From: Branchiostoma floridae
Lineage: Eukaryota; Chordata; Leptocardii; Amphioxiformes; Branchiostomatidae
Assembly (NCBI RefSeq): GCF_000003815.2
Contig: NC_049985.1
Location: 3,616,157 to 3,680,156 of the forward strand
Direction of reading: 5' to 3'
Length of the DNA: 64,000 nt
Below are positions 7,578 to 37,252 of this stretch, in pieces; the first letter of the stretch is position 1, and each line of letters opens with the position of its first letter. A program made the translations under genes and the position numbers. The notes under the pieces are model-generated. The model was not told where the DNA came from. It saw nothing but the letters and a program-made list of their open reading frames with translations, and did no database searches.

Positions 7578-10500
7578 TCACAACTCCCTGTGGAATAAGA
7601 AGTTATCGGCGAAGGTGGGAACGATGGCCCTGAGTTTGGTGAGCGTCCAGCAAAAGGCTGCCGGGTAGTAGACCTCGCGGGCGCGGGTTGCCCCTCCCCG
7701 GATGATGGCGCGGGCTGTGTCGTCCACAGGCACGGTCATCTTCAGCATCTCTCGTCCCTTCTCCGTTTTCTGGAAGAAATTTGGTTTCTTGTTGGTCGGA
7801 AAGACACGTTACGGTGTCATCGTGGCGTCAATGATATGTTATAACATAATGTATCGAAGTTCTGAGTCTGCCATGGTGTTGGGTTGAAGGTTATATAATA
7901 AATCTCCTTCTACCCCAGCATATTTGATAAACATCTCTGCATAGACTATAATGAAATCCTACCACCGTGAGTTCAAAATTCAGAAGGACATGTACAATTC
8001 GCCACTTGGGATGCGGCGCGTCAGCTGTTGATATTCTTAGTCTATGACGTTATGTGCAACATTTTCAGCAATTTCAACGTCCGAATCTGGTATTCGAATA
8101 TTCGACCGCGCGTATAGTATAACATAAGTAGCGTTATAACATAAATCAAATTACACGAACTCTCTATGGGTATAATAGTATGTACATACTTGTAACATTT
8201 CCTGCATCCCGTGTGTCCTGATCAAGCCGATAATTGCCAGGGTGACGGACACGTCCTGTCCGGCCTTCAGCAGTTCCACACGGAGCGAGCTGAAGAACCC
8301 GTCCAGGGCGAACTTCACCGCTGCGCCCCAGGCCAGGTTAGGGGCTGCAATCTTTGCTATAGGTACAGTAGAAACCGTTTAATTGCACACTCACTGGCAG
8401 TGTGTTTCATGCAATTATTCGGACGGTGCAACAATGCGAAGTTGGACCGCACCACTTTGGGGATTCCGTGCAATTAACAAAAGTATACCGAAAGTATCCA
8501 TTTCTCAGTCCCCACACTGCACTAATAACATTCCTACAGACATTTTGATTATACACTAACAGTGTTCCTTGATATGCAGGAAATTCTCTCTCTCTCTCTA
8601 TATATATATATATATACATACACACACACACACACACACACACACACATATATATATATATATATATATATATATATACAATTTCCTGCATATCAAGGAA
8701 CACTAGGTGAAGACGAATCTTCATTTTCATTTCACTGAGGAAGGAAGATGGATGTCTTCCGAATCGTCTGAATAAAATATTGATATTATCCAGGAGAAGA
8801 GTTTGGACCTTCATCTATTTATCATATCCTGGATGTCTAACCTTCACAAACGTATCAAGGAACACTGTTAGTGTAGAATCAAAATGTCTGTAGGAATGTT
8901 ATTAGTGTAGTGTGGGGACTGAGAAATGGATATTTTCGGTACTTCATGTCACTAAGCCCAGGCGTTGAAAGCAATACAAACTGTGATTTAGAGGGTATGA
9001 GGTAAACTCAAATCTGTCCGTGGCCCTTCTTTCGGTCTTTAAGAAGCTATCCCAAGTCGGGCAAAACCATTGGATATCAGGTGTTTTCCGTATTTTCTTT
9101 GAAATATCCAATCAGTTAACGTTGATAGTAAAGACAAAAAAGCTTTGGGCGATTTGAAACAGCGAGCAATATTTATATTTCAGCCATACCATGGGTATGG
9201 TGAAATATATTGTATTCGTAATGTTTCTTTCTTTCTCCTGTCAAATCTTTAAATCGATTCAACTCCGTCGTTCCTGGACCGAATTACTTGAAATTTGGCA
9301 CAAGGGTAGAGTGGGTCAATACCCAGGTGCTTTTTTGTCATTTTTTTTCATATCTTCCTTTAAAATGATTTTATTCATGTTTTTTGTAATTTTTATGTAC
9401 ATTTTGCCCCCCTGTTCCCTGGTCTTACAGCCGAATGACTTAAAATTTGGTACAGAGGTGCCTTGATCATATGCCCACAAAATTCCAAAAACAATTTTGG
9501 CATACGGTACAGCAAAATGCTTAATTTTGGCATTTTTTGCCATTTTTTGCCCCAGAAATGACATTTTTTGGCTCCTATACCCCCATTTTACAACAAAATG
9601 ACCTGAAATTTGGTATAAGAGTGCCGTCTACATATGCGCACATGAATTCATTGACACCTTTGGCATACGGTACAACAAAATGCTTAATTTTGGAATTTTT
9701 TGGCCATTGTTTGACCAAAAACGTACGCTTTTGGCTCCTGTTCCCTGGTCTTGTACCCAAATGACCTACATTTTGGTACATAGGTGCACTAGATATTCAT
9801 TCAAATGACCCATGTATAATTTCTGGCATAAACCACTTCAAAATGATATATTTGGGTACTTTTTTAGTAATTCTCCACTGGCCAGAGGGTCAACGACCTC
9901 AAGGTCGTTGACCTCTCCCACCTGAAGACAGCATGTGCACATGTCTATATATACTAGTAACTTGATTAAAGAGGCAACCAATCACGTAGCCTGAGTCAAC
10001 ATCCCGAAGGGGATTGGCAGCCAATCAGTGAGCCCGGTGTTATCTGGATGAGTCCATTCTGGCACAGAGGGGGTACATATTTTTTAAATTCATCTTTGGA
10101 CTGTTGATTATATAATGTCAATGGGAGTATTTTTGAACTGGACTATTTTGCAATTTTACATGGGGTGCACTGGAAGAGTCCATTCTTGCATGGAGGGGGG
10201 CATTTTTTAAAATTTGTTTATGGACTTTGGTGATTTGATATGTCAAAGTGTTTCAGTGTGGTTATTTTTTGACTGGTCAACTTTGCAATTTTACATAGGT
10301 TGTGCTGGAAGAGTCGATCCTTACATGGGGGGATTTTTAAAATCCATTTTTGGGACTTTGGTGATTACGTCCAAGTCAACACCGGTTAGCGAATGTATTT
10401 TTGGACTGCACCACTTTACATAGGGGCATCGCAAAAAGAGTCCATTCTTGCATGGGGATGTTTTCAAATTTAGTTTTAGAAAGGTGATAATTCAATATTC

Positions 10501-36800: not shown

Positions 36801-37252
36801 CGGTTCTAGTTGTGCTGTTCTAGTCGTGACGGTTCTAGTTATGCTGTTCTAGTTGAGGCGGTTCTAGCTGTGCTGTTCTAGTTGTGACGGTTCTAGCTGT
36901 GCTGTTCTAGTTGTGACGGTTCTAGTTGTGCTGTTCTAGTTGTGACGGTTCTAGTTGTGCTGTTCTAGTCGTGACGGTTCTAGTTATGCTGTTCTAGTTG
37001 AGGCGGTTCTAGCTGTGCTGTTCTAGTCGTGAACGGAATTAAAAGAAAGACAATTTCTTCCAGAAAACGGAGCAGGGACGAGAGATGCTGAAGATGTCCG
37101 TACCTGTTGACGAGACCGCCCGGGCCATCATCCGGGGAGGGGCGACCCGGGCCCGCGAGGTCTACATCCCGGCCTCCCTGTGCTGGACGCTCACGAAACT
37201 CAGGGCCATCTTTCCTGCTTTTGTAGATAACTACATCACCTCGGAGCTTTAA
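33814..37252 (+). CDS. HSD11B1-like short-chain dehydrogenase, copy D (6 exons, 300 aa)
   Basis: Exons 33814-33901, 34862-34992, 35560-35671, 35933-36148, 36387-36553, 37064-37252 join to 903 nt. The protein has the same anchor (MSRLAWAGLVVVL), TGCSTGIG, LDYLVLNHDGSSV and C-terminal GGATRAREVYIP blocks as copy C, and ends DNYITSEL, one codon shorter than C. The catalytic Ser position is Ala180 (VNALNG), the Tyr position is Ser193 (SWSVAVK), and Lys197 is kept. Intron 2 carries an inverted-repeat element and a hairpin MITE; intron 5 carries a 29-base minisatellite that runs to within about 30 bases of the exon 6 acceptor. Exon 6 and the 30 bases before it are almost identical to copy C. Family firm, activity unknown. 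Confidence 0.9.
34078..34230 (+). other. Intron 1 block conserved between SDR copies C and D (D copy)
   Basis: Counterpart of 29734-29930, with the same CGAGGGGGCGTGGTCCCTGT core. Confidence 0.5.
34662..34796. mobile_element. MITE, CTCCAAGCAGA family, in intron 1 of copy D
   Basis: GATCTCCAAGCAGATCCTAT to CCGTGGATCTGGTTGGAGATTA; interior AGCCGGCCAAGGGAGTCAAA is shared with 5014 and 38307 elements. Confidence 0.75.
35289..35511. mobile_element. Inverted-repeat element in intron 2 of copy D
   Basis: GCCTCACGTTAGCGGCGTCG and its near complement CGACGTCGCTAACGTGACGC bracket 220 bases. Confidence 0.6.
36636..36735 (+). repeat. Dispersed repeat shared with TDO2 intron 1
   Basis: TAGCCTCCACCTGACCTTCC... 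GGGGGTACGGGGAT... matches 41821-41915. Confidence 0.55.
36750..37036 (+). repeat. 29-bp minisatellite in intron 5 of copy D
   Basis: About ten units of TTCTAGTTGTGCTG plus TTCTAGTCGTGACGG. It stops about 27 bases before the exon 6 acceptor. Copy C lacks it. Confidence 0.9.

Follow-up and report, generated by a model that had tools for sequence, protein, structure and literature searches.

Classical short-chain dehydrogenases/reductases (SDRs) use a Tyr for acid-base catalysis and a Ser that steadies the substrate, and the helix after the catalytic Lys is part of their dimer face. To our knowledge, most of the inactive SDRs described are single genes. NMRAL1/HSCARG and NmrA are atypical SDRs outside the HSD11B1 family, and HSCARG (NMRAL1) reportedly works as an NADPH sensor. 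HSDL1, a single gene with one Tyr-to-Phe change, is said to have been described by Meier et al. in 2009 as a conserved but inactive SDR. Tandem copies of hsd11b1 are found in fish, as far as the accessible part of a survey of SDR genes of 29 animal species goes (PMC8073704). Here we have analyzed a stretch of 64,000 nucleotides from Branchiostoma floridae (C7:3616157-3680156, the window from here on) containing four HSD11B1-like genes, A to D, in which both the Ser and the Tyr have been replaced. We consider it fairly probable from their sequences that they code for NADP(H)-binding SDR proteins without oxidoreductase chemistry (pseudoenzymes), kept by selection.

Catalytic residues of the four genes

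A search of the window with exon peptides returned four clear copies, the remaining matches being weak and at chance level. All four are intact HSD11B1-like classical SDR genes of six exons, A on the minus strand and B to D on the plus strand. Gene A (7578..14030, 301 aa) has its exons at 14030-13943, 12900-12770, 11855-11744, 11373-11158, 8356-8190 and 7769-7578. Gene B (15035..19576, 302 aa) is composed of 15035-15122, 16153-16283, 16767-16878, 17480-17698, 18689-18855 and 19385-19576, gene C (29503..32685, 301 aa) of 29503-29590, 30172-30302, 30812-30923, 31169-31384, 31905-32071 and 32494-32685, and gene D (33814..37252, 300 aa) of 33814-33901, 34862-34992, 35560-35671, 35933-36148, 36387-36553 and 37064-37252. 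The 20 introns are all GT-AG, with phases common to the four genes. The frame stays open through the six exons in every spliced model, as a preliminary description of this DNA had claimed, and the limits given there (stop of A at 7578, stop of D at 37252) were borne out. The proteins of C and D are 91% identical, and an N-terminal hydrophobic segment is present in the proteins of this subfamily. The possibility that the four are alleles of one gene was ruled out by their silent divergence over the whole coding sequence (0.19-0.47) and by their four separate places in one contig.

The PF00106 (adh_short) profile was matched by all four proteins, D reaching 117.3 bits for a cut-off of 26.6. The best solved relative found with HMMER against PDB was HSD11B1 (2rbe, 1xu7 and others), over profile positions 23-281 of 301 and with an E value of 2.8e-55. 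Actually, the 23 top distinct PDB sequences were all HSD11B1 (E from 2.8e-55 to 8.9e-47), and the next best had 4.5e-18. In NCBIfam, the matches of member D were to generic SDR models, the best 25 of 215 being all below their curated cut-offs.

Both HMMER and MAFFT aligned the active-site stretch of the four proteins gap-free to human HSD11B1, for which we take the residue numbers used here (Ser170, Tyr183, Lys187, Asn143, Arg66 and so on) and their roles to be the accepted ones. The position of Ser170 is Ala in A (codon at 11165..11167, minus strand), Gly in B (17689..17691, plus strand as for C and D), Ala in C (31375..31377) and Ala in D (36139..36141). At the position of Tyr183 we found Gly in A (8325..8327), B (18718..18720) and C (31934..31936) and Ser in D (36416..36418), next to the codon of a Trp (8328-8330, 18715-18717, 31931-31933 and 36413-36415, respectively). 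The classical SDR signature of a catalytic Ser plus Y-x-x-x-K is thus absent, with Ser and Tyr replaced in the four genes and the Lys kept. Lys187, Asn143, Gly41, Ser43, Arg66 and Asn119 are conserved throughout, and the cofactor loop TGxxxGxG reads TGCSTGIG in the four; human Lys44, Ser67 and Thr92 are not kept in the MAFFT alignment. After the Lys, the stretch K-F-A-L-D-G-F-F-S-S-L-R is identical in A, C and D, and in B its first A is replaced by G. The loss of Ser and Tyr announced in the preliminary description is therefore confirmed by both alignments, as is the conservation of the Lys, TGCSTGIG and the NADP-type Arg in all four. The motif start that it gave, G-K-[VI], holds for B, C and D and fails for A, which reads A-K-I because the codon split at its exon 4/5 junction is GCA. 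Identity to the human protein was 43-50% in exon 5, where the Tyr position lies, 42% in exons 2-3, 38-41% in exon 4 and 35-43% in exon 6, so the change of the Tyr is local.

These gene models rest on genomic sequence, and an artefact might be suspected, either because a splice junction was misplaced or because Y-x-x-x-K is restored by an alternative exon that stays hidden. However, a six-frame search of the window with a restricted pattern found no other Y-x-x-x-K of this kind, and hence no exon restoring the motif, a case the preliminary description had allowed for. Intron 4 of D has only 238 bp and leaves little room for a hidden exon. Besides, same-phase junction models found the exon 4 donor and the exon 5 acceptor in all 16 genes with both exons fetched from the same genome (see the next section), and the modelled exon 4/5 junction yields Y-x-x-x-K in all 11 Tyr-bearing ones. 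On this evidence (motif search, short intron 4 and junction checks in the paralogues) we reject the hidden exon, and we give hardly any credence to an artefact of either kind.

Relatives in the same genome and history of the loss

We searched the 513.4 Mb (431 contigs) of the same genome with exon 5 of C and obtained 27 relatives including A to D; coming from a single exon-5 query, these counts are lower bounds. By translation, 18 keep Y-x-x-x-K and nine lack the Tyr (L026-L028, which share one and the same exon 5, may represent a single event counted three times). Apart from A to D, the Tyr-less relatives are L020/L044 (C7:1.535 Mb) and L030/L053 (C7:21.797 Mb), both with Gly at the Tyr position, L022/L045 (C11) with Glu, L031/L054 (C7:21.808 Mb) with Met, and L029/L052 (C18) with His, in which the Lys is also changed to Asn. 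The loss thus extends beyond the window, and at C7:1.52-1.55 Mb the Tyr-less L044 is found among the Tyr-bearing L046, L048 and L047. At the L029 locus (C18:3633450, L029:1362-1650) the paralogue is preceded by a second partial copy of exon 5 that reads H-C-A-K, and either decay of the gene or duplication of the exon may explain this.

Twenty regions were fetched and modelled. Four of them without exon 4 (L049, L050, L057 and L061) were left out of the trees, and the 16 with exons 4 and 5 together with A to D gave 20 models. Three of the 27 matches were left out of modelling, L036 and also L042 and L043, which resemble more distant SDRs. L060 has no exon 2 and so stayed outside the exons 2-6 tree and the residue table given below, and the modelling script missed the exon 3 donor of L045 and the exon 2 donor and exon 6 acceptor of L056. 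Among the Tyr-bearing paralogues, L046, L047, L048 and L051 are the nearer ones and L055, L056, L058, L059, L060, L062 and L063 the distant ones. Upstream of exon 3, six of the latter (L055, L056, L058, L059, L060 and L062) carry incomplete copies of its initial two thirds, V-V-A-K-M-K-D-L-G-A-Q-E-A-I-Y-V-A-G-D or shorter, mostly ~88 bp apart.

Trees were constructed from two sets, exons 4-6 and exons 2-6, after masking the columns of Ser, Tyr, Lys and Trp. A to D formed one clade with L044 and L045, with support of 98/99 (exons 4-6) and 98/95 (exons 2-6), and Tyr and Ser are both missing in all six genes. In both trees A to D nest among Tyr-bearing HSD11B1-like paralogues, and L052 falls apart from the Tyr-less clade. 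The pair L053 and L054 was sister to the six-gene clade in the exons 2-6 tree (92/94), a position that the exons 4-6 tree did not resolve. The human protein and the distant paralogues carry the Tyr, which is therefore the older state, its loss having preceded the duplications that gave A to D. The best reading of these sequences is that A to D would be an old subfamily, derived from a Tyr-bearing ancestor before those duplications.

Among the 9 Tyr-less models, 7 have also lost the Ser, compared with one (L055) among the 11 that bear the Tyr. The association between both losses had a Fisher p of 0.0008, calculated from 7/8 vs 1/12 with L052 out and the human protein in, and ignoring relatedness. 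In bacterial relatives (8 loci, alignment judged by eye) Tyr and Ser are kept in seven. The exception, L002 from Hyphomicrobium, is an SDR-like frame without Y-x-x-x-K in which Tyr and Ser are not both kept. Another SDR-like frame without Y-x-x-x-K was seen in the B. floridae genome (L011, C15:4195722).

Selection on the Tyr-less genes

Among A to D, the pairwise ratio of nonsynonymous to synonymous change (dN/dS or omega) lay between 0.27 and 0.48 for the complete coding sequence, between 0.05 and 0.12 for exons 2-3 and between 0.31 and 0.62 for exons 4-6. No more than 1 in 1000 bootstraps of the whole gene reached a dN/dS >= 1, and the whole-gene values are not the dN/dS near 1 in all copies that the preliminary description had considered as the contrary case. 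With codon models, the omega of exons 2-3 was 0.071 in the six-gene clade; the four nearer Tyr-bearing genes had 0.103 and six distant ones 0.077, indicating that the cofactor half is as tightly held in Tyr-less as in Tyr-bearing genes. For exons 4-5 the values were 0.339, 0.220 and 0.158, in the same order. Fixing omega at 1 (with kappa fixed at 2.2) gave a worse fit in the six-gene clade, by 62.5 and 58.7 in twice the log-likelihood difference.

The rate of silent differences was lower in exons 2-3 than in exons 4-6 in the six A to D pairs, with Fisher p < 0.05 in four. The identity to D in exons 2-3 was 86-97% in L044-L052, that is, in Tyr-less and nearer Tyr-bearing paralogues. Since the nearer Tyr-bearing paralogues are also nearly identical there, constraint, conversion or both may be behind this pattern.

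The weaker constraint in exons 4-6 could be taken as a sign of pseudogenes in slow decay, the more so as the exon 5 omega of A vs D was 0.73, with 235 of 1000 bootstraps at or above 1. However, the four frames are open, when neutral simulations predicted 4.8-9.8 stops per pair and only 0-8 runs of 1000 were free of them. The exons of C and D are separated by one 3-base gap, against 39 gap runs in their introns (28 of them not divisible by three, in what is a rough intron alignment), and omega = 1 fits far worse. We reject decay on the open frames, the misfit of omega = 1 and the contrast in gaps between exons and introns, and regard it as very improbable. The argument of the preliminary description that open frames speak against simple decay is well supported by this misfit, by the gap pattern and by the missing stops.

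Possible role of the Tyr-less proteins

We compared in a residue table 10 Tyr-bearing paralogues and the human protein with the eight Tyr-less copies that keep the Lys. The former have 58 invariant positions. Of these, 45 are unchanged in all eight Tyr-less copies and only one, the catalytic Tyr, has changed in every one of the eight. Directly before the lost Tyr, Trp192 (D numbering) is present in the six genes of the clade and in 0/10 Tyr-bearing rows, where F, Y or I appears (an aromatic residue in 9 of 10). A Glu at position 241 is also specific to the six-gene clade, in a gappy stretch. The Tyr place itself is variable in this clade: G, G, G, S, G and E.

These data have something in common with what would be expected from rewired enzymes, in which Lys, Asn and a water molecule (or a new residue) would run a slower or different NADP(H) reaction with the Trp shaping the pocket. 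Lys187 is kept in 8/8 and Asn143 in 7/8 of the Lys-keeping Tyr-less copies, the divergence of exons 4-6 resembles that expected for substrate sites after duplication within an enzyme family, and the Trp is new and fixed in the six-gene clade. On the other hand, exon 5 of A, C and D contains no Tyr (the only one in exon 5 of B is residue 238), and the variable residues at the Tyr place mean that there is no common replacement donor there. We regard this alternative as possible but doubtful.

The pseudoenzyme reading starts from what the sequences contain: they belong to this fold family, their cofactor loop is intact, Ser and Tyr are gone and the Lys is kept, a new Trp is fixed and selection is purifying. 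A to D combine lost catalytic residues with a frame under purifying selection, as would be expected of SDR pseudoenzymes of the HSDL1 kind. The preliminary description had left the choice between pseudoenzymes and a rewired active site; its rejection of decay stands and the first option appears the most likely, so that its proposal is partly supported. The oxidoreductase chemistry would have been lost before the duplications, the proteins being retained for NADP(H) binding and probably serving now as partners that bind the cofactor, or as sensors, and no longer as enzymes. They might dimerize through the conserved region after the Lys (K-F-[AG]-L-D-G-F-F-S-S-L-R), in homodimers or mixed dimers, and act by binding and not by catalysis, as redox or ligand sensors or as the dominant member of mixed dimers formed with Tyr-bearing paralogues. 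The Trp may pack above the nicotinamide where the Tyr used to be, closing the old active site, and the faster-evolving exons 4-6 would decide the ligand of each copy.

Several observations weigh against this reading or the history that goes with it. L054, without the Tyr, keeps the Ser, and L055 (C3:14668873) keeps Y-x-x-x-K with Gly at the Ser place, so that neither loss strictly entails the other. Among the Tyr-less copies, the NADP-type Arg is Lys in L053 and the Asn of the tetrad is Ser in L044. Counting L052 as lost, the changes of Tyr state needed are 3 in the exons 4-6 tree or 2 in the exons 2-6 tree, and a single loss for the eight Lys-keeping copies has 92/94 in the latter and is not resolved in the former. 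In both trees the branch of the human outgroup received a warning for its great length, and the exons 2-6 tree could be distorted by conversion in exons 2-3. When exons 4 and 5 are taken separately, the omega intervals are broad and extend to or beyond 1 in four of the six pairs for either exon, indicating a weaker constraint in the surroundings of the old active site; in exon 5, the omega of A vs C was 0.65, besides that of A vs D already mentioned. By the omega values alone, exons 4-5 look somewhat looser in the six-gene clade than in the Tyr-bearing groups. Finally, the N-x-S/T sequon is found in none of A to D, and the aligned stretch of human HSD11B1 has three, so that a location in the lumen of the endoplasmic reticulum is not assured.

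A more specific proposal, which we find quite unlikely on the sequences available, is that the six genes of the clade code for NADPH-gated receptors or subunits, each dead copy being paired either with an active paralogue of the HSD11B1-like family or with a membrane partner. The diverged pocket of exons 4-6, with the new Trp as its lid, would then serve to read the NADPH state or a ligand similar to a steroid. If this were true, a steroid-enzyme family would have turned into a sensor family in an invertebrate chordate.

Other features of the window

Between genes B and C (23687-28950, plus strand) there is a LINE (long interspersed nuclear element)-type retroelement, with an open frame of 576 aa followed by another of 1205 aa (25333-28950) that has endonuclease and reverse transcriptase domains. 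A frame at 63091-63588 (plus strand) showed a weak match to phosphatidylserine decarboxylase (6l06, E 0.0024) and no Pfam match at E 0.01. The Rfam scan gave no match at gathering score.

Comparison with known systems

By descent A to D belong to the HSD11B1 family, this being their closest solved relative and the trees nesting them among Tyr-bearing paralogues. Like HSD11B1, they keep the NADP loop and the Lys and Asn of the tetrad. Unlike it, they have Ser170 and Tyr183 replaced in all four, 10-11 extra residues after the L-N-H motif and no glycosylation sequon. What defines HSD11B1 by function is the NADP(H)-dependent turnover of 11-keto/11-hydroxysteroids, and residues that are key to it are absent from A to D. 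The boundaries of exons 2-5, wherever these exons were found, coincide with those of the Tyr-bearing paralogues of their own genome, and the nearer of these paralogues have 86-97% identity to D in exons 2-3. The Tyr-bearing paralogues differ in that Y-x-x-x-K is kept, and the Ser too in 10 of 11 (all but L055).

The NMRAL1/HSCARG and NmrA proteins offer a parallel in that cofactor binding serves the regulation of a partner, although for A to D what is known are the residues of the cofactor site. MAT2B, an SDR-fold regulatory subunit, keeps its catalytic triad according to the accessible part of its description (PMC3793261), and to that extent is not a like case. In the literature search, with most subscription papers outside its coverage, there was no paper on lancelet HSD11B1-like pseudoenzymes among the matches listed.

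Tyr-less and Tyr-bearing paralogues coexist here in one genome; the loss has its place on a tree, and one new residue accompanies it. Such a system lets the transition from enzyme to binding family be tested. It also bears on the role of HSD11B1-type proteins in a lineage that we take, being that of a lancelet, to stand outside vertebrate glucocorticoid signalling. HSDL1 provides the precedent of a conserved, inactive SDR, so this kind of protein was already known. The A to D clade differs in having lost both Ser and Tyr and in having expanded. What appears to be new, judging from these gene sequences, is an expanded, clade-wide loss of both residues within the HSD11B1 family.

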